NCBI GenBank assembly: GCA_021784595.1
Contig: JAJYHT010000062.1
Span: 1 to 64,000, forward strand
Length of the DNA: 64,000 nt
Direction of reading: 5' to 3'
From: Bacillota bacterium
GTDB lineage: Bacteria > Bacillota > Sulfobacillia > Sulfobacillales > Sulfobacillaceae
Shown piece by piece: positions 27,289 to 38,671 of the stretch. Made by a program: the position numbers and the translations under genes. Positions within the stretch are counted from its first letter, which is position 1. Every line of letters begins with the position of its first letter. The notes under the pieces are model-generated. The model did no database searches. It had not been told where the DNA came from and was given only the letters and a program-made list of their open reading frames with translations.

Positions 27289-27376
27289 CATGATTGTCCA
27301 TGCGGCTTCATTATGATAGGATCCAGTTAAGTTTAATTGTCAAACGATTGTGAATGATGAGATGGAGGCGGTCTCA

Positions 27377-27886
27377 GTGGGGGAACTTCAAACCACCGTA
27401 ACCATGACAGTAAACGGGGAACGGGTAACACGAACGATTGAATCGAGAGTTCTGCTAGTGCACTTTTTAAGGGAAGAGTTAGGACTGACAGGAACCCATG
27501 TTGGATGCGATACGTCGCAATGCGGGGCCTGTACGGTTTTGCTGGATGGGGAGGCCGTAAAATCGTGCACCGTGCTCGCGGTGCAGGCTATGGGCAAAGC
27601 AGTGACAACGATTGAGGGGCTGGAAACGGATCGGTTGCATCCAATTCAAGAAGGTTTTTGGGCTAAGCATGGCCTGCAATGTGGGTTCTGCACACCGGGA
27701 GCGATGATGGCGACTACCTACCTGTTAAGCCAAAATCCCAACCCTACTGAAGAACAAATTCGCGTAGGTTTGGATGGTATCGTGTGTCGCTGTACCGGAT
27801 ATGAAACGATTGTGCGCGCTGTGCAACATGCGGCTCAACTGATGAATAGCTCGACGCAAACAGAACGATCGACTGAAGTGGGCTAA
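27377..27886 (+). CDS. coxS: CO/xanthine-dehydrogenase-type small subunit, 2Fe-2S
   Basis: Iron-sulfur subunit of a molybdenum hydroxylase. N-terminal plant-type cluster ligands GCDTSQCGACTVLLDG...C, and C-terminal helical cluster CGFCTPGAMM...CRCTGYETIV. GTG 27377 has GGAGG eight bases upstream, giving 169 residues; an ATG at 27350 is in frame but poorly placed. It passes electrons from the Mo site toward FAD in CoxM. First gene of the S-L-M-D-E operon. Confidence 0.9.
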   Translation: MGELQTTVTMTVNGERVTRTIESRVLLVHFLREELGLTGTHVGCDTSQCGACTVLLDGEAVKSCTVLAVQAMGKAVTTIEGLETDRLHPIQEGFWAKHGLQCGFCTPGAMMATTYLLSQNPNPTEEQIRVGLDGIVCRCTGYETIVRAVQHAAQLMNSSTQTERSTEVG

Positions 27887-28020
27887 ATGGAGGCATATTC
27901 GGGTTTTCCCATATGGGGCGATCGGACCAAAACCCCTTCGCCGACCATGGAGGAGAACTCAATCCCCCTTAGAATGGGGACAGAGCATTAAAAAATTCAT
28001 TTTTCCAAGGGAGTGGAAAT

Positions 28021-30375
28021 ATGCCGCAGGTTATGGGTCAAGCTCTCAAACGCCATGAAGACATTCGTTTGATTAGAGGTCGTGGTCAATACACGGACGA
28101 CATGAAATTGCCGGGCATGGTATATGCCAAGATGGTGCGAAGTCCCTATGCGCACGCTAAAATTGCGGCGGTACATGTCGCGCAGGCGATCAATTTGCCG
28201 GGAGTGCTGGCCGTATTTACGGGAAATGATCTGAAAGATGAATTGGGACTCATTCCAACTGCCTGGATACCACCGAACTCAGATTTGAAGATGACTCCGC
28301 ATCCGGCCTTGGCTTATGATACCGTGCGATATGTAGGAGACGCGGTGGCGGTTGTCATTGCAGAAAACCCATATATTGCTCAAGACGCAGCGGATTTAGT
28401 GCAAGTGGACTATGAGCCGTTGCGCGCAGTGACCAATCCACGGGATGCGGTGGGTCCCGGAATGCCTTTAGTGCATCAGGAAATCGATCGCAACATCGCG
28501 TTTCATTGGTCGGTGGGACCTAATTTGGATGATGTCTTCAATCAGGCAGATGTGGTGGTAAAACAGGAATTTAGACAACAGCGCCTAATCCCCAATGCTA
28601 TGGAACCGCGGGCGGCAGTGGCGCAGTATAATCAGGCTACCGACGAATTAACCCTTTGGGTGACCACTCAAAATCCTCATATTCACCGATTGTTGATGTC
28701 AGGCATCTTAGGTATACCCGAACACAAGTTGCGTGTGGTAGCCATCGATGTTGGGGGAGGGTTTGGAAGCAAGATTGCGTGTTATCCGGACGAAGTCGTA
28801 GTCTCCTGGGCCGCTCGCCGATTGCGCCGCCCAGTAAAGTGGACTGAGACCCGTCAGGAGAACTTTATGGTGACTAGTCATGGTCGCGATCATGTGCAAG
28901 AGGTGGAATTGGCTGGAACCAAAGACGGACATATTCAAGCCGTACGGGTTAAGGCGTTTTCTAATTTAGGCGCGTATTTGTCCACTGCTGGTCCGGGCGT
29001 TCCTACAATCTTGTTTGGCCTCATCGTTAATGGCGCCTACCATATTCCGCAAGCCTCCGCTGACGTTTATGGCGTTGTCACCCATACTACGCCGGTCGAT
29101 GCCTACCGTGGGGCTGGTCGTCCCGAGGCTACCTACCTGATTGAGCGGATGGTCGATCGGTTTGCTGCTACGATTGGAATGGATCCGGTCGCAGTAAGAG
29201 AATTGAACTTAATTGAGGCCAAGGCTTTTCCGTATACTAACCCGTTTGGGCTGCAATATGACAGTGGCAACTACCAAGAGACCTTGAAGATAGCACTCGA
29301 TATGGTTGACTATGCCAACTTGCGTCAGGAACAAGTCCAATTGCGCAAGGACGGGAAATATATTGGGATTGGATTTAGCACTTATGTGGAGATGTGTGGG
29401 CTAGGACCCTCAGAGGTGGCGGGTGCGGTAGGGTTCCAAGGCGGCTTATGGGAAAGTGCCACCGTTCGAGTGCATCCCACGGGAAAGGTCACCGTATTTA
29501 CGGGGGCATCGCCTCATGGTCAGGGCGAAGAAACCACGTTTGCGCAGATAGTGGCTGAGGAATTGGGAATGCCTGTCGATGACATAGAAATTGTTCATGG
29601 GGATACTGCGCGAATCTCCATGGGCTGGGGTACTTACGGGTCCAGGACCACGGCGGTTGGTGGTGGGGCGATACACTTAGCAACCCAGAAAATCATCCAA
29701 AAAGCCAAGAAAATTGCCGCTCATAAGTTAGAGGTGAGCGAATCCGACGTGGTATTTCACGATGGCGTGTTTGAAGTGCAAGGTTTGCCCGAACTGCGTC
29801 AATTGACATTTCAAGCCGTGGCACTCGACGCCTATCTTGCTTGGAGTCTACCGGAAGGGATAGAACCTGCTCTCGAAGGCACCGCATTTTATGATCCCAA
29901 AAACTTTACCTATCCGTTCGGTGCTCATGTTGCCGTGGTGTCGGTTGACACTGCGACTGGTGATGTACGTCTGATGCGGTATATTGCGGTAGACGATATT
30001 GGGAACATCATCAACCCGATGATCGTCGAAGGGCAAATTCATGGAGGATTGGTGCAAGGTATTGGCCAAGCGTTATACGAAGGGGCAGAGTTTGACGATC
30101 AAGGGCAGTTGCTAACTGGCTCATTATTGGACTACGCCGTGCCCAAAGCGCGATTCTTCCCGCGATTTGAAACTGCCCACACTGTAACTCCTTCGCCCCA
30201 CAACCCATTGGGAGTAAAGGGAGTGGGAGAGACGGGCGCCATTGCTTCCACGCCTGCGATTGTGAATGCAGTGATGGATGCGCTCAGTCCGTTTGGGATT
30301 GAAGACCTGCCGATGCCGCTAACTCCAGAGAAGGTTTGGCAGGCTGTACAGCAAGCGAAGGGAGGGCGTGCCTAA
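28021..30375 (+). CDS. coxL: Aerobic CO-dehydrogenase-type large subunit, form II
   Basis: 784-residue Mo-pterin catalytic subunit. The active-site loop reads AYRGAGR (about 361-367), the mark of form II; form I CO dehydrogenases have AYxCSFR. Other family blocks: GRGQYTDDMKLPGM, DVGGGFGSK, and the C-terminal VKGVGETGAIASTPAI with the catalytic Glu. Whether form II enzymes oxidise CO physiologically is disputed; other hydroxylase substrates are possible. Preceded by GGGAGTGG and followed by coxM with overlapping stop/start. 134 bp separate it from coxS. Confidence 0.92.
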   Translation: MPQVMGQALKRHEDIRLIRGRGQYTDDMKLPGMVYAKMVRSPYAHAKIAAVHVAQAINLPGVLAVFTGNDLKDELGLIPTAWIPPNSDLKMTPHPALAYDTVRYVGDAVAVVIAENPYIAQDAADLVQVDYEPLRAVTNPRDAVGPGMPLVHQEIDRNIAFHWSVGPNLDDVFNQADVVVKQEFRQQRLIPNAMEPRAAVAQYNQATDELTLWVTTQNPHIHRLLMSGILGIPEHKLRVVAIDVGGGFGSKIACYPDEVVVSWAARRLRRPVKWTETRQENFMVTSHGRDHVQEVELAGTKDGHIQAVRVKAFSNLGAYLSTAGPGVPTILFGLIVNGAYHIPQASADVYGVVTHTTPVDAYRGAGRPEATYLIERMVDRFAATIGMDPVAVRELNLIEAKAFPYTNPFGLQYDSGNYQETLKIALDMVDYANLRQEQVQLRKDGKYIGIGFSTYVEMCGLGPSEVAGAVGFQGGLWESATVRVHPTGKVTVFTGASPHGQGEETTFAQIVAEELGMPVDDIEIVHGDTARISMGWGTYGSRTTAVGGGAIHLATQKIIQKAKKIAAHKLEVSESDVVFHDGVFEVQGLPELRQLTFQAVALDAYLAWSLPEGIEPALEGTAFYDPKNFTYPFGAHVAVVSVDTATGDVRLMRYIAVDDIGNIINPMIVEGQIHGGLVQGIGQALYEGAEFDDQGQLLTGSLLDYAVPKARFFPRFETAHTVTPSPHNPLGVKGVGETGAIASTPAIVNAVMDALSPFGIEDLPMPLTPEKVWQAVQQAKGGRA

Positions 30376-31235
30376 TGTTAACGGCGCCGTTTGAATATCG
30401 TCGAGCGGAACGGGTCGAAGATGTTATTGAATGGCTTAGTGATGAGACGCGCGAAACCAAGATCCTTGCGGGCGGACATAGTTTGCTTCCACTCATGAAG
30501 TTGCGGTTAGCCACACCGGCAATTTTAGTGGATGTCAGCGCCTTACGGGAATTGCAGGGTGTGCAGGAAGACGGCGAAGTATTGCGGGTTGGGGCTTTTA
30601 CCCGTTACGTGGAGCTGGCTAGACATTCCCTAATCAACCAAAAAGCTTCTCTGTTAAGTCAAGCTGCCAATGTGGTAGGCGACCTACAAGTCAGAAATCG
30701 GGGGACCATTGGCGGCAGCCTATGCCATGCGGACCCAGCAGCTGACTTGCCTGCGGCAGTACTGGCCTTGGAAGCGCAACTGGTGATCTTAGGGCCAAAC
30801 GGCACCCGCAGAGAATCGGCAGAGGCGTTTTTTATGGCACCTTTTGTCACCACATTGGGTCGCCAGGAAATTTTAGCAGCCATCGAGATTCCTCTAAGCA
30901 CGCAAAATGCACGTAGCACGTATCTAAAGAGGCCGCATCCTGCTTCGGGATATCCGGTGATCGGGGTGGCCTGTCTCATCGATGCCATCCATAACCAAAC
31001 AATTGGCACAGCGCGGCTTGCTATTACCGGTATTGCCTCCACTGCATTTCGGGCTAGTGCCGCGGAAGCGCAATTGGTGGGCGGGCGGTTGGATGCCGAA
31101 ACCATTGCCAAAGCCGCCTCGACTGCGGCTATCAATGCGCCTTTGGACGATGATGAGCATACCGAGTACAAGCAGCAACTGGTTCAGGTTTATGTAAGCC
31201 GCGCATTGCAACAAGTGGCCGCTCAGGAAGACTGA
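30375..31235 (+). CDS. coxM: CO-dehydrogenase-type medium subunit, FAD
   Basis: 286-residue FAD subunit. FAD loops AGGHSLLPLMKLR and TIGGSLCHADPAADLPAA are intact, followed by the CO_deh_flav_C domain. It takes electrons from the CoxS clusters to quinone or another acceptor. ATG 30375 overlaps the coxL stop (TAATG) and has GGGAGGG upstream; a longer frame from 30336 lies inside coxL. The order S-L-M differs from the M-S-L order of well-known form I operons. Confidence 0.9.
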   Translation: MLTAPFEYRRAERVEDVIEWLSDETRETKILAGGHSLLPLMKLRLATPAILVDVSALRELQGVQEDGEVLRVGAFTRYVELARHSLINQKASLLSQAANVVGDLQVRNRGTIGGSLCHADPAADLPAAVLALEAQLVILGPNGTRRESAEAFFMAPFVTTLGRQEILAAIEIPLSTQNARSTYLKRPHPASGYPVIGVACLIDAIHNQTIGTARLAITGIASTAFRASAAEAQLVGGRLDAETIAKAASTAAINAPLDDDEHTEYKQQLVQVYVSRALQQVAAQED

Positions 31236-31239
31236 GTTT

Positions 31240-32172
31240 ATGCAGGTGTCTTGGGAAAAGCCGTCTGACGTTTTAGTAGACCTGCGGTCACAAGGATATT
31301 TAGCGGATACGGCACTGTCGACGGCCGTGTATTTGAGTGCGAAGATGAACGTTCCACTGTTTTTAGAGGGTGAGCCGGGCGTTGGCAAAACAGCATTGGC
31401 CTTGTCGGTGGCCAATGCTGTTCACCGTCCGTTAATCCGCTTGCAGTGCTACGAAGGGATCGACCGGGAAAGTGCCCTATACGATTGGAATTATCCCCGC
31501 CAATTGATGCATGTGCGTTTGGCGGAGTCCTTTGGTCGATCTGCAAGCGCAGATTTGGAGGATGAGTTGTACAGCGAGCGCTTCCTAATTGCCCGGCCAT
31601 TGTTGCAGGCCATCATGCCAAAAGGTCCGGCCCCAGTGCTGTTGATTGACGAGATTGACCGCAGCGATGACGAGTTTGAGGCGTTTTTGTTGGAGGTTTT
31701 ATCAGAATTTCAAGTCACCATACCGGAGATCGGCTCGATTCGCGCGAAAGAGTCTCCTTTAGTTTTTCTAACTTCTAACCGGACGCGAGAAGTGCATGAA
31801 GCGTTAAAGCGTCGTTGCCTATATCAATGGCTAGGATATCCTAGTTTCGAAAGAGAACTGGCTATTGTGTCACAAGTTAGTCAAACGCTCTCGGGCACTC
31901 TGGCGCAAAGTTTGGTGAGATTAGTGCAGCGCTTGCGGCAAGAACCTTTGCATAAGGCTCCGGGAGTTGCTGAAACCCTGAACTGGGCCCGCGCAGTAGA
32001 AATATTGTCTACAACAAGGTTGTCTATTGATTCCGTAGAAGAGACCTTGGGGTGCGTGTTAAAATACCATGAGGACATTGAAAGGCTCTTGGCATCAGGC
32101 ACTGACGGTGCAACCAAATTGCAACGAATCTTAACTGAGATTGGTATAGTCGATGAATCCCACCCTGTATAA
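31240..32172 (+). CDS. coxD: MoxR-family AAA+ ATPase, CoxD-like
   Basis: 310 residues. Walker A GEPGVGKTA (44-52), Walker B LLIDEIDRSDDEFEAFLLEVL, sensor TSNRTREVHEALKRR with arginine finger. MoxR ATPases beside CoxE-like VWA proteins mature the Cu/S or Mo active site of CO dehydrogenase. Starts 4 bp after coxM and overlaps the next gene by 20 bp. Confidence 0.87.
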   Translation: MQVSWEKPSDVLVDLRSQGYLADTALSTAVYLSAKMNVPLFLEGEPGVGKTALALSVANAVHRPLIRLQCYEGIDRESALYDWNYPRQLMHVRLAESFGRSASADLEDELYSERFLIARPLLQAIMPKGPAPVLLIDEIDRSDDEFEAFLLEVLSEFQVTIPEIGSIRAKESPLVFLTSNRTREVHEALKRRCLYQWLGYPSFERELAIVSQVSQTLSGTLAQSLVRLVQRLRQEPLHKAPGVAETLNWARAVEILSTTRLSIDSVEETLGCVLKYHEDIERLLASGTDGATKLQRILTEIGIVDESHPV

Positions 32173-33250
32173 TTTGTGGTTGTTTGGGCGTACATTGCGT
32201 ACCCATGGCTTTAGTGTCGGGATTGACGATATGCAGCGAATTATGATCGCTTTAAACTTGGCCGAACCGCGGACTTGGAAGGAACTTTATGAGACATTGC
32301 AGCCGTGTGTGGTGCGCTCGCACATGGAGCAAAAGTTATTTGGTCCGTTATTCGCCGCATTTTTTGGATTGTTAGCTGGTGTGGAACTAGACGAAGCTAA
32401 GGGTGGTCCGTGGCTACTTGGACTCGCTCCTGCGGATCCTCGTACCCAGCAAGTAACCTGGCTTTCCCTATCGTCTGCATCTCGTCTCGTCGAAACGCCG
32501 GCAACCGTGTTTTCCCATGCCGGGCGTGCTAGCCAGGAGGAGCGGCATGGGAAACTAAGGCCTCCAGATGATATTGGGCAGTACGCGGCTATGAACCTTT
32601 TGCCGCATTGGTTTCGTAGCCCTCGAAGGAAACGGACTTTGCGCGGCCCTTATTGGGATATCTCAAAGACGTTGCGCAAGGGATTGGAGCAAGGAGAGCT
32701 TATACGCATATGGCATCGCCGTCGCACGATGCGAGAGCGTCGCACTGTCATATTGTGGGATACCAGTCGATCGATGGAAAGCATCACGCCGATGCTTTTC
32801 AACTTTCTGCACAACTTGGTTAAACAACGTCAGGTAAAGGTGTTAAGTTTTAGCACACAGCTTACTGTCGTTACTCCCCAGTTATTGAACAGCAGCCCTG
32901 AATACGCGCTAAATGCGTTGTACGAAGCAGCTCAAGATATCCACGGCGGTACTCGGCTACAGAATGCGGTGGACATAGCCGTTCGGAAGTACTCACGTTG
33001 GTTGGGTCAGAGGACCGATGTCATTTTGCTAACTGACGGATTTGAAAGCGGTGATATAAAAACTTTGTCTGCCAGCATAAAGGCATTGCGTCGTCGATGC
33101 GGACGCGTCGTGTGGTGGAATCCTTGGGCTTCACGCCCGGGTTATTCTTACGACACGCATTCTGGTCAGGTTATCAAGCGACACGTTGATTTGATTTGCT
33201 CAGCGGGAAATTTTGGCGAACTGAGGGATGCCTGGAACGTTCTAGGATAA
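32153..33250 (+). CDS. coxE: VWA-domain protein, CoxE-like
   Basis: 365 residues. The C-terminal half is a von Willebrand A domain with the metal site ILWDTSRSMESI and the later LLTDGFESGD segment. The N-terminal half is helical and typical of CoxE (FxxxLRxxGxxVGxDDxxR). Partner of the MoxR ATPase in maturing the hydroxylase. Start lies within the coxD end. Last gene of the operon as seen; coxF, coxG and coxI are not in the window. Confidence 0.85.
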   Translation: MNPTLYNLWLFGRTLRTHGFSVGIDDMQRIMIALNLAEPRTWKELYETLQPCVVRSHMEQKLFGPLFAAFFGLLAGVELDEAKGGPWLLGLAPADPRTQQVTWLSLSSASRLVETPATVFSHAGRASQEERHGKLRPPDDIGQYAAMNLLPHWFRSPRRKRTLRGPYWDISKTLRKGLEQGELIRIWHRRRTMRERRTVILWDTSRSMESITPMLFNFLHNLVKQRQVKVLSFSTQLTVVTPQLLNSSPEYALNALYEAAQDIHGGTRLQNAVDIAVRKYSRWLGQRTDVILLTDGFESGDIKTLSASIKALRRRCGRVVWWNPWASRPGYSYDTHSGQVIKRHVDLICSAGNFGELRDAWNVLG

Positions 33251-33422: not shown

Positions 33423-34565
33423 ATGAAAAAATGGCTAGGGATTTTGAGCGTACTAGTTTTGGTCATCATAGCGGTGACGGTTGGGTTTTCCGTGGGCAAC
33501 AGGCCAGCACCTCAACCGACACCGATCATTGCCACGGCTACTCCTTTGTCGACCAACCCCGATGTAGACCCCGGTACATCTTTGGGTGGGCGACCTGCTC
33601 CCAATTTTAAGTTGACCAACCAGTTTGGACAGCGAATGTCGTTGGCGCAATTCCGAGGCAAGGTGGTGGTATTAGCCTTCACCGACAGCCAGTGTACCAC
33701 CATATGTCCGATTACTACTGAAACATTAGTAGAAGCCGTGCGAATGCTGGGTTCCGCGGGATCGTCAGTGCAGCTTTTAGGCGTGGATGCCAATCCTAAT
33801 GCGACTTCGGTGGCAGATGTAAAGGCATATTCCGTAGATCATGGACTTTTGACCTCATGGGACTTCCTGACTGGCTCGCCCGCGCAATTGGCCGCGGTCT
33901 GGAAACAATATGGGATTTACGTCGCGGTTGTGCACGGAGCCATAGACCATACACCCGCCGTCTACCTTATCAATCAAAGAGGTCAAGAAGAGGATATTTA
34001 CGATTCGCAAATGGCGTATGCCAGCATAGGCCAACAGGCTCACGTGTTAGCTTCTGCCATTGCTCGTTTGCTGCCGCACTCACCACCGTTGCCCAATATG
34101 TCGTACCAATATATTCCTGGCATTTCTCCGACAAGCGACATTACAATGCCCACGACCAGCCATCAATCCGTGAATTTAGGACCTGGCCATGCGCATCTTC
34201 TTGTGTTTTTTGCGACTTGGGTTCGTCAAACCAGTGACTTGGCAAAAAATCTTGAAGCACTGAATCAATACCAAGTTGCTGCCCGACAAAATGGTTGGCC
34301 GTCCGCGGTTGCCATTGATGACGCTCCCACGGAACCGTCGTCAGACGCATTGCGAAACTATTTAGCTGGATTGCCGACACCTTTAGGGTACCCTATTGCC
34401 ATTGACACTACAGGGCAAGTGGCCGACGGCTATAACGTGCAGGATCAACCATGGCTTGAATTAACGGCTCCCTCTGGGAAAATTGTATGGACTCATGACG
34501 GTTGGCTAAGTTTAACAATGCTCGAAGCCAAAGTCGGGCAACTCGTTAAAGCAGGGCGTATTTAA
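33423..34565 (+). CDS. SCO-family protein fused to a cysteine-less thioredoxin-like domain
   Basis: Membrane-anchored, extracytoplasmic. N-terminal anchor about 4-25. Domain 1 (about 55-200) is SCO1/SenC: CTTICP with Cys91 and Cys95 and copper-ligand His176 in DHTPAVYLI, used to deliver copper to oxidases. Domain 2 (about 215-380) has a thioredoxin/TlpA-like run (HLLVFFATWVRQT ... TAPSGKIVWTHDGWL) in which the CxxC position reads VRQT, so it cannot do thiol chemistry. ATG 33423 has GGGGGAG 11 bases upstream. No oxidase gene is adjacent. Confidence 0.8.
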   Translation: MKKWLGILSVLVLVIIAVTVGFSVGNRPAPQPTPIIATATPLSTNPDVDPGTSLGGRPAPNFKLTNQFGQRMSLAQFRGKVVVLAFTDSQCTTICPITTETLVEAVRMLGSAGSSVQLLGVDANPNATSVADVKAYSVDHGLLTSWDFLTGSPAQLAAVWKQYGIYVAVVHGAIDHTPAVYLINQRGQEEDIYDSQMAYASIGQQAHVLASAIARLLPHSPPLPNMSYQYIPGISPTSDITMPTTSHQSVNLGPGHAHLLVFFATWVRQTSDLAKNLEALNQYQVAARQNGWPSAVAIDDAPTEPSSDALRNYLAGLPTPLGYPIAIDTTGQVADGYNVQDQPWLELTAPSGKIVWTHDGWLSLTMLEAKVGQLVKAGRI

Positions 34566-36271: not shown

Positions 36272-36370
36272 ATGAGCTGGTGGACCGTGAACGGTGGTAA
36301 TGTGGTAGCATTTCTGGCTTTAGTAGGATTTTTTACGGGCGCACTTTTCTTGCAAGCACGTCACCACTAA
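36272..36370 (+). CDS. 32-residue single-helix membrane peptide
   Basis: Starts MSWWTVNGGNVVAFLALV, spans the membrane once (about residues 9-27) and ends QARHH. ATG 36272 has GGGAGG eight bases upstream, a strong site. Two tryptophans and the terminal His pair would sit at the two membrane faces. It lies 170 bp before cytochrome b6 on the same strand and may be a small subunit of that complex, like the single-helix subunits of b6f; this is inference. Confidence 0.55.
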   Translation: MSWWTVNGGNVVAFLALVGFFTGALFLQARHH

Positions 36371-36377
36371 GTGGTGA
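36361..36377 (+). repeat. Hairpin spanning stop codon of small membrane peptide
   Basis: TCACCAC-TAA-GTGGTGA, perfect 7-base arms with the stop codon as the loop. No T-run. May stabilise the short message end or be a protein site. Confidence 0.4.
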
Positions 36378-36539
36378 TGTACTTGTCCAAAGAGGTGCCT
36401 AATTTTTAGGTGTAATCCATGCGTAAGTCGCAAGTAACGAGATGAAAATTCTTGGATAAACTTGTTATAGATTGGTAAACGGTATACACTGTCCCTACTA
36501 CGGCATACGGAGCATTCGCCGGCTTGTAGGAGGGATTCC

Positions 36540-37181
36540 ATGAATTGGACTGTGTATGTGCGGGAAAAAACTCAGTTGCTGTTTTCGTTGGACACATGGC
36601 TACCTACGGAATTGCCCGAGTACGCCACCGGCATTATGTATACGTTGGGCTCTTTGACCGCGTCTAGCTTTGTTGTACTGGTTGTCTCTGGAATTTTGAT
36701 GGCTGCCAATGGTCCTCAATGGTGGACCATTTCATCAATAGGGTTTTACCTGCGGGGCATACACTTTTGGTCAGTGCAAGCCTTCTTTTTTTTCATGGTG
36801 TTGCATTTGTTGCGAGTTTTTTTCTCCGGGGCTTGGCGCGGAGGAAGAGAAAAAACTTGGCTGCTGGGTACGCTCGCTCTCTTGATCTCGGTCCCTACGG
36901 CATTTACGGGATATTTGATGCGGGGAGACTTTTATTCTCAATGGAATGCGGTACAAGCTAAAGATGGTTTGAATGCGTTAGGGCTGGCTTGGTTCAACAC
37001 TCTTAATGCGGGCCAAATGTATGGGCTGCATGTTGTGGTTTTCCCCGTGATTTTGGCATTTATCATCGCCATTCATCTAGCCATGGTGCGCATCAAGGGC
37101 GTGGTTCCTCCCTATCCTGGTCCCGATGAACCCCATGACACCGAAGAGGGGGTCAACCAAAATGTACCATCCGCGCACTGA
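36540..37181 (+). CDS. Cytochrome b6-type protein
   Basis: 213-residue diheme cytochrome b with four membrane helices. Heme ligands H75 and H89 (HFWSVQAFFFFMVLH, 13 residues between) and H164 and H179 (14 between); the H-x14-H spacing is that of cytochrome b6, not of mitochondrial-type cytochrome b. FxGYLMRGDFYSQW and the amphipathic N terminus match the family. GGAGG lies 6 bases before ATG 36540. Overlaps the next gene by 20 bp. No Rieske or cytochrome c gene is in the window. Confidence 0.9.
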   Translation: MNWTVYVREKTQLLFSLDTWLPTELPEYATGIMYTLGSLTASSFVVLVVSGILMAANGPQWWTISSIGFYLRGIHFWSVQAFFFFMVLHLLRVFFSGAWRGGREKTWLLGTLALLISVPTAFTGYLMRGDFYSQWNAVQAKDGLNALGLAWFNTLNAGQMYGLHVVVFPVILAFIIAIHLAMVRIKGVVPPYPGPDEPHDTEEGVNQNVPSAH

Positions 37182-38121
37182 TGTCACGCATCGATATCGT
37201 TATGTTTCGACCGATTTTGTCAAACATCTGCTGGGCACCACGCTAGTCGTGACCGTTGTGACCATGGCGCTGTCGGCGATTTTTCATGAACCGGTGCGGC
37301 CCGCCCTTAAAATTGACACCTATGCCAATCAGCATCCCCGTACCTTTATGTCCGTTGCTCTTAATGCCTTGAACGGTCAGGGAGAAATCGCGGATTATGG
37401 CCCGCCTTACAATAACGGAACGGGTTCGGTACAGGATGTTGTCCAGAAATGGGTGGGCATTATTCATCCTGTGTATCCTAAGACGGATTTTATATTGAAT
37501 CCGTTAAAACAGGCATCTCACTTAGACCCGCAACTAACACCTGCGCTCGATGCCTTTGAAGCAGCCGCACCAGCCCAGCAGACAAAATGGGAAGCTGCCT
37601 TTGCTACGGCATTGGCTCATGCGCGGGTGGTATCTGGTCAGGTGCTTCTGCCGCCCGGGCCTTACGGACCAGTCGGACCAATGATGCAGGACATGTTGAA
37701 GTTGGGGCAGAGCGGTTTGTTGACGGGAGCATTGAATCGCAGTCCGGCCGACTATCAGTTTGACAATCAAAATTCATTGCTGTTTTTACAGGGCAGACCG
37801 CTTCAAGATGCTGCGTCCAAATTAGAGCTGCAAGGGAATCAATGGGGTATTATTCACGAAGAAAACGCTCCCTATCCTGGACCGTGGTGGATGACGATCG
37901 TGACAGCCATTTATCAAATTCCCTTCATTGCCAACGCTAGCGCAGCGGATGCCTTAGCATTGGGTTCCGGAATGTTTCTCTTCATTCTCTTGATGGTAGC
38001 TCCATGGCTGCCCGGGGTGAATCGGTTACCCCGGTTTTTGGGCATTCATCGTTTGATTTGGGCCTCATATTACCGTAAATATCAAAGTGCCAGTTCTAAA
38101 CCACCCGAACAGACGCCATGA
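37162..38121 (+). CDS. Membrane protein partner of cytochrome b6, not a normal subunit IV
   Basis: 320 residues. One helix near residues 17-39, a soluble part of about 200 residues rich in Pro, Ala and Gln, then one or two helices near the C terminus (WWMTIVTAIYQIPF and ALGSGMFLFILLMVAPWL) and a basic tail. Subunit IV of b6f has three helices, about 160 residues and a PEWY motif in the quinol site; none of this is seen, although a PGPWW sequence precedes the second helix. ATG 37162 follows AGGGGG by 9 bases. Overlaps of 20 and 4 bp with both neighbours show it is part of the complex operon. Confidence 0.65.
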   Translation: MYHPRTDVTHRYRYVSTDFVKHLLGTTLVVTVVTMALSAIFHEPVRPALKIDTYANQHPRTFMSVALNALNGQGEIADYGPPYNNGTGSVQDVVQKWVGIIHPVYPKTDFILNPLKQASHLDPQLTPALDAFEAAAPAQQTKWEAAFATALAHARVVSGQVLLPPGPYGPVGPMMQDMLKLGQSGLLTGALNRSPADYQFDNQNSLLFLQGRPLQDAASKLELQGNQWGIIHEENAPYPGPWWMTIVTAIYQIPFIANASAADALALGSGMFLFILLMVAPWLPGVNRLPRFLGIHRLIWASYYRKYQSASSKPPEQTP

Positions 38122-38303
38122 AGCGGTGGACTGGCCCAGCACGTTTCGCTGTCGGTAGTGCCATAGGTATTGGGGGATTAGGCCTGATGGGGCGCTCGGT
38201 GTTTCCTTGGCACGCCAACGCGTTGATTACCGGGGTCGTGATGCTGTTGGTCGGTGTTTTTCTGGCCTTGGGCACTTTTACCCGCCGTCCTAAACGAAAG
38301 TAG
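38118..38303 (+). CDS. 61-residue two-helix membrane protein
   Basis: Hydrophobic segments about 9-28 and 34-54, ending in a basic TRRPKRK tail, so the C terminus is probably cytoplasmic. Its ATG overlaps the upstream stop by 4 bp (ATGA), which ties it to the cytochrome b6 operon. No family recognised. Followed at once by a terminator. Confidence 0.65.
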   Translation: MKRWTGPARFAVGSAIGIGGLGLMGRSVFPWHANALITGVVMLLVGVFLALGTFTRRPKRK

Positions 38304-38497: not shown

Positions 38498-38671
38498 ATG
38501 AACAATCGTGTAGAAATTTGCCCACAGTGCCGACGTTATCCACTAGAATATCGGACCTTGCAAATTACGGGCGACATGTACGCGTTTTGTGAAAATTATC
38601 CGGAGTGCGGGTATGTGAGCCACATGAAGACGGCTGACCCGTTAGTGAAAAAGATCAGCCATACTGCGTAA
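38498..38671 (+). CDS. 57-residue zinc-ribbon protein
   Basis: Four cysteines, CPQC at 8-11 and CENYPEC at 31-37, form a CxxC...Cx5C metal knuckle. Between them are LEYRTLQITGDMYAF. It resembles topoisomerase-type or rubrerythrin-like zinc ribbons that bind nucleic acid or protein. AAGGAGGAG precedes ATG 38498 at good spacing. The last codons form the left arm of the terminator. Too short to place in a family. Confidence 0.7.
   Translation: MNNRVEICPQCRRYPLEYRTLQITGDMYAFCENYPECGYVSHMKTADPLVKKISHTA

Follow-up and report, generated by a model that had tools for sequence, protein, structure and literature searches.

A predicted Rieske-less cytochrome b6/subunit IV-like membrane complex encoded with two tiny proteins in acidophilic Gram-positive bacteria and Chloroflexota

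Results

Four membrane protein genes form a compact cassette

Four forward-strand genes lie close together at positions 36272-38303 of the window (the whole 64,000-nucleotide stretch of DNA analyzed). The first (36272..36370) encodes a single-helix micropeptide of 32 aa, MSWWTVNGGNVVAFLALVGFFTGALFLQARHH, which starts at an ATG after GGGAGG and contains one hydrophobic stretch. It is followed by the gene for a cytochrome b6-like diheme protein (36540..37181; 213 aa), identified by Pfam and PDB sequence matches, alignment, and a phylogenetic tree; by the gene for a divergent subunit IV-like partner (37162..38121; 319 aa), assigned based on hhalign alignments, a structural model, and natural fusions to b; and by the gene for a 61-aa two-helix protein (38118..38303), recognized by its recurrence 3' of partner genes. 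A first-pass annotation had listed the same four reading frames at these positions, and we refined only the start of the partner: its open reading frame comprises 331 aa from 37126, but its homologs begin at the ATG at position 37162, which corresponds to 319 aa. The overlap is 20 nt between the b and partner genes and 4 nt between the partner and two-helix genes, and these three genes are probably translated in series. A promoter and terminator scan gave matches that were no commoner than in shuffles.

None of the four translated proteins contains a cysteine. This leaves no site for a heme c or an Fe-S cluster, and the two b hemes would, therefore, be the only cofactors that can be argued for from the sequence. 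Neither a Rieske nor a cytochrome c gene is present in the cassette itself. Their absence, recorded in the first-pass annotation, holds for the locus but not genome-wide, because a canonical Rieske/b6/subunit IV-cytochrome c operon is present on contig C95 of the same genome. Contig C28 of this genome carries another complete cassette, again with a similar peptide upstream.

A gene at 38498-38671, immediately downstream of the cassette in the window, encodes a 57-aa zinc-ribbon-like protein with a Zn_ribbon_Top1 match below the curated cut-off. Elsewhere in the window, we read from the sequence a CO-dehydrogenase-type molybdenum hydroxylase cluster (27350-33250) in the order small, large (AYRGAGR), and medium subunits followed by CoxD- and CoxE-like proteins. 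A gene at 33423-34565, upstream of pirin and HxlR genes, encodes a 380-aa protein whose first half has an SCO1/SenC domain and whose second half resembles thioredoxin by eye. Neither in the Sulfobacillales lineage of the window nor among distant loci did we find broadly conserved neighbor genes, and the CO-dehydrogenase-like cluster is, therefore, probably incidental; as it does not adjoin orthologous cassettes, a link to it was rejected. Similarly, no electron-partner gene is conserved near the cassette in this lineage or at the distant loci.

The b6-like protein retains both pairs of heme ligands

The b protein matches Pfam families PF13631 (E=1e-17) and PF00033 (E=2.5e-12) as well as cytochrome b6 in the PDB (E=8e-13). 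Its heme ligands, H75/H89 and H164/H179, align exactly and column for column with those of the canonical b6 of the same genome, in agreement with its earlier description as a true b6-type diheme protein. In the same alignment, Thr35 stands opposite Cys43 of the canonical protein, which is the heme c_n cysteine; the window protein thus differs from the c_n-heme subgroup of b6-type proteins in lacking the cysteine of helix A. In the loop after helix C, D130, Q134, and D142 (window numbering) are nearly invariant in the family alignment, and the conservation of this loop points to a working outer site. A tree was built from 27 cassette b proteins and 39 canonical b6-type proteins, the latter drawn from loci that have canonical subunit IV genes; it separated the two groups fully with a support of 100/100, and all cassette b proteins formed a single clade. 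One b gene (L010; contig C145 of genome G024) is apparently frameshifted after residue ~159 next to an intact partner gene, possibly reflecting decay or an assembly error.

The partner resembles a subunit IV with an inserted domain

In the partner, helix E comprises residues 16-40 and helix F residues 262-282, and a helical domain (residues ~50-238) that is predicted to be on the outside lies between them. Nothing in Pfam, NCBIfam, or the PDB sequences matched the protein significantly, and the first-pass annotation had described it as not being subunit IV. Using hhalign to compare a partner profile with one of subunit IV derived from canonical loci, we obtained two alignments covering helices E and then F in order: in the first, the first partner helix fell on helix E and, in the second, the segment beginning directly behind PWW and ending at PWL was matched to subunit IV from PEWY up to and including helix F. 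The scores were 30.7 and 25.0; in a null of 200 local column shuffles, the 95% point was 22.5 and the highest score 28.1. This control used well-filled columns only and smaller blocks, and was free of the few impossible scores (~130) given by an earlier control. Because the probability assigned by hhalign itself was only ~20%, we base the relation to subunit IV on the shuffle control, the colinear order, and fusions between b and the partner. Specifically, the two are a single 547-aa protein in two Ktedonobacterales genomes (L164, 4260-5903; L166, 7293-8936), resembling the joined halves of cytochrome b in bc1 complexes. The ordered profile alignment and the natural fusions speak against the earlier claim and led us to reject a partner unrelated to subunit IV; the sensitive profile search, which had been named as the check that could overturn that claim, thus did so in part. 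Several further Chloroflexota-side copies are also fused or lie within frames of 500+ aa.

A third subunit IV helix (G) is missing, as the partner ends soon after helix F in the alignment as well as in its structural model. As reported in the first-pass annotation, PEWY was not found in the window protein, which has PGPWW at the corresponding place. Across the family, the position of this Qo motif reads PGPWW or PGAWW, in a distant subfamily it reads GPWY, and PEWY occurs in neither; the register given by hhalign and that given by the GPWY of the distant subfamily differ by a few residues, and with either one there is no acidic residue at the position of the glutamate. We conclude from these comparisons that the partner is a diverged form of subunit IV, in which ~175 additional residues separate E from F and helix G and PEWY are missing. 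Many Alicyclobacillaceae-like partners (L148, L152, L154, L155, L159, L160, L161, and L165) carry, in addition, a C-terminal tail with conserved cysteines (CxxCPxxxxC...C, e.g. NACEQCPLRAACTKEF...CY) that is absent from Sulfobacillus; this tail is predicted to be on the inner side and may be a metal or Fe-S site.

An AlphaFold model of the 547-aa fusion had a mean pLDDT of 68 and a pTM of 0.65. Its alignment contained fused or read-through rows only, and mixed rows of separate b and partner proteins, which MAFFT misaligned, were left out. In the PDB, the model best matched cytochrome b from bc1/bcc complexes, with E values as low as 5e-7. Its b half superimposed on cytochrome b6 with a TM of 0.71 and an rmsd of ~3.6 A. 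The whole chain gave an rmsd of ~20 A to solved structures, with a placement of E and F against b that does not superpose and, therefore, the modeled packing of the second half of the fusion is tentative. In the partner, the extra residues between E and F are predicted to be helical with a pLDDT > 90 at about residues 111-190. Y, W, G, and P predominate among the most conserved residues of this domain (YGPPY, WG), which do not form an evident metal site. Searches of the PDB by fold and by sequence with the inserted domain or with the partner alone gave no match, and the assignment of a known fold to the outer domain was abandoned.

Both tiny proteins recur with the cassette

To score the upstream peptide, we scanned up to 420 nt upstream of b for short hydrophobic frames starting with ATG and preceded by a ribosome-binding site. 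Such a frame was present at 63 of 101 distinct b genes vs 17 of 1577 control genes (1.1%). These peptides are clearly alike within lineages, e.g. MSPGSGNFIVEGLFLLTFVVGLLWPARRHH in many Sulfobacillales and MVDYANAWPNYYVGFLWLAIF... in Alicyclobacillaceae. A two-helix open reading frame was found 3' of the partner gene in 38/75 cases vs 1.95% of control genes, and the encoded proteins share a recurring core, e.g. LGIIGFGT or GVYGT. Of note, the filters for small open reading frames were strict, and some true cases will have been missed. The 32-residue single-helix and 61-residue two-helix proteins of the first-pass annotation thus both recur well above controls. We conclude, on the basis of this recurrence in sequence, that both are real and conserved members of the cassette and we consider each a probable small subunit of the complex. 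The short single-helix peptide (about 27-54 residues) is likely overlooked by annotation. We take the single-helix proteins of the cassette to be reminiscent of PetG/L/M/N.

The cassette is conserved as a unit across phyla

The partner was present in 36 of the 61 genomes searched, including the window genome; in the loci that were fetched, b is its neighbor. In a scan of named genomes, the carriers were Sulfobacillus, Sulfoacidibacillus, Ferroacidibacillus, the Alicyclobacillus species A. tolerans, A. montanus, and A. mengziensis, and Chloroflexi/Ktedonobacterales MAGs. The partner gene was found in 13/41 genomes of the family of A. mengziensis, in 57/400 genomes of the phylum of a Ktedonobacterales member, and in only 6/399 genomes drawn evenly from the phylum of the window itself. 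The first-pass annotation had suggested a possible distinct complex that oxidizes or reduces quinone, and this co-occurrence as a unit in Sulfobacillales, Alicyclobacillaceae, and Chloroflexota supports a distinct gene set. Judged by sequence, the cassette is a conserved family of its own across acidophilic Gram-positive and Chloroflexota genomes. In the distant subfamily with GPWY (L171, 7794-9423; L172-L176), several copies have their own two-helix protein, and most b proteins (L171-L174 and L176) keep a cysteine at the heme c_n position (WYCMGGLTF), which is Ala in L175. Thioredoxin-like or CcdA-like genes lie near some copies of this subfamily. In one Bacillota MAG, two different cassettes of the family are arranged tail to tail (L152, 4479-8845).

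Within the family of A. mengziensis, sulfocyanin was present in 11 of 13 cassette carriers vs 19 of 28 non-carriers. Because sulfocyanin does not separate the two groups, we rejected the cassette as a marker of iron oxidation there. Of 30 fetched loci, nearly all Chloroflexota-side, 8 (L247, L248, L251, L258, L266, L271, L273, and L275) have genes for a PAS/GAF histidine kinase and a LuxR-type response regulator no more than a few kb from the cassette. Such genes close to roughly one in four Chloroflexota-side loci and to some Alicyclobacillaceae loci would fit a cassette that encodes not a respiratory enzyme but a b-type redox sensor or proteins for regulation or assembly; however, the kinase association is not general, and the conserved diheme path across the membrane, the four-part membrane cassette, and the several copies in some genomes make such a role very improbable.

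The cassette occurs in a complete genome without a bc-type Rieske protein

The presence of a canonical Rieske gene on another contig of the window genome raises the alternative that the cassette encodes a bc complex that borrows its Rieske protein from elsewhere and runs a modified Q cycle. The complete genome of S. thermotolerans Kr1 (G025; 3,317,203 bp) contradicts this for that organism: it has three cassettes, no PF13631 protein beyond the cassette b proteins, and no bc-type Rieske protein, its sole Rieske-domain protein being a soluble ferredoxin of 104 aa. In G025 and three other genomes of 1-3 contigs each (G008, G020, and G029), cassette b proteins are the only PF13631 proteins. Completion of the set by standard bc genes encoded elsewhere, which the first-pass annotation had named as a refuting outcome, is thus ruled out for G025, and at least in this genome the complex does not depend on a bc-type Rieske protein. 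Moreover, the loss of the PEWY glutamate and the divergence of the loop after helix C from canonical proteins speak against borrowing, and we regard this alternative as very unlikely.

Discussion

Complex III-type enzymes are taken to require a Rieske protein and a high-potential acceptor. The cassette follows the core plan of these complexes, with a diheme b6 protein that has the same four histidines as b6f/bc complexes and a partner with helices E and F, yet by sequence it falls outside the Rieske/cytochrome b complexes, lacking a Rieske protein, cytochrome f/c1, helix G, and PEWY, and having the ~175-residue insertion between E and F. Sulfobacillus petB homologs in operons without cytochrome c and iron-sulfur protein have been reported by Justice et al. 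2014 (PMC4378227), where it is suggested that they 'may perform some other function', and these petB-like genes are probably the same b genes as those of the cassette. In the accessible parts of the open-licence literature, this paper included, we found no description of the partner as a modified subunit IV, of the small proteins, of the fusions, or of the spread over several phyla.

We suggest that the cassette encodes a compact membrane complex that stands on its own and descends from the b6/subunit IV core of bc complexes; its assembly as one complex, quinone as its substrate, the direction of electron flow, and the outside partner are inferred. In this complex, the b6-like protein would hold two b hemes spanning the membrane, the partner would contribute helices E and F and place its outer helical domain where a Rieske protein or cytochrome c otherwise docks, and the single-helix peptide and the two-helix protein would complete the assembly. 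With no Rieske protein, no heme c, and no Qo glutamate, a standard Q cycle should not run. Because there is no bifurcating Rieske partner, single electrons should instead be exchanged between an outside partner and the outer heme and would move through the two b hemes between this partner and menaquinone near the inner face. The outer site would be the conserved b loop (D130, Q134, and D142) under the inserted domain, which may dock or cap the outside redox partner. The reading that we favor, tentatively and with somewhat less than even confidence, is a Rieske-less b6/subunit IV-type complex that transfers electrons between an outside partner and menaquinone, with quinone reduction as the likeliest direction in iron-oxidizing hosts without a bc complex, where it would serve as the uphill branch feeding NADH synthesis.

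Two lines of evidence from the hosts bear on this direction. Fe(II)-oxidizing Sulfobacillus, according to two genome studies, mostly lack a canonical bc complex (PMC4378227, PMC6803676) and need quinone reduction for NADH formation, which favors a quinone-reducing role. In S. thermosulfidooxidans, transcripts of two annotated cytochrome b/b6 genes, which may not be those of the cassette, decrease along with sulfocyanin when Fe(II) is removed by a competitor (PMC6315122); this tie to Fe(II) availability also favors quinone reduction and speaks against the opposite direction. In that opposite direction, the same complex would be an enzyme of the quinol:ferric reductase type that oxidizes menaquinol and passes electrons outward, directly to soluble Fe(III) or to another outside acceptor. 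Among the carriers, Sulfobacillus species and Alicyclobacillus tolerans are listed as anaerobic Fe(III) reducers (PMC8790237), and an outward flow to soluble Fe(III) fits such hosts nearly as well as quinone reduction. It is also supported by the lack of an outside electron carrier encoded with the cassette and by the best NCBIfam match of b, which is to ExtP of selenite/tellurite reduction. Like the cassette, the ExtP/ExtQ pair (NF040969, NF040970) combines a b6-like protein with a membrane partner, and b matches ExtP with E=4e-21; however, the window protein scores 75.8 bits, far under the cut-off of 290, only 1 of 27 partner members matches ExtQ (E=0.1), and no Se/Te operon context was seen around the cassette. 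Given, furthermore, that there is no multiheme cytochrome, that the outer domain has no evident metal site, and that the Qo glutamate is lost, we consider the outward direction a serious but rather unlikely alternative.

Ktedonobacterales are not generally known for iron oxidation, and the frequency of the partner gene in the phylum of a Ktedonobacterales member (57/400 genomes) makes an iron-specific role doubtful; the Chloroflexota members argue for a role more general than iron. Whether the family amounts to a class of its own, made up of b6/subunit IV-type complexes that work independently of Rieske proteins and in which menaquinone would be reduced by an outside donor via two b hemes, is a bolder proposal that we consider distinctly doubtful at present. 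If true, such a class would be the missing uphill enzyme of Gram-positive acidophilic iron oxidizers and would have a more general counterpart role in Chloroflexota. The cassette offers a testable candidate for electron entry into the quinone pool of Gram-positive iron oxidizers without a bc complex, a point left open by published genome analyses, and a widespread b6/subunit IV core without a Rieske protein or a high-potential acceptor would reveal what this core does alone.
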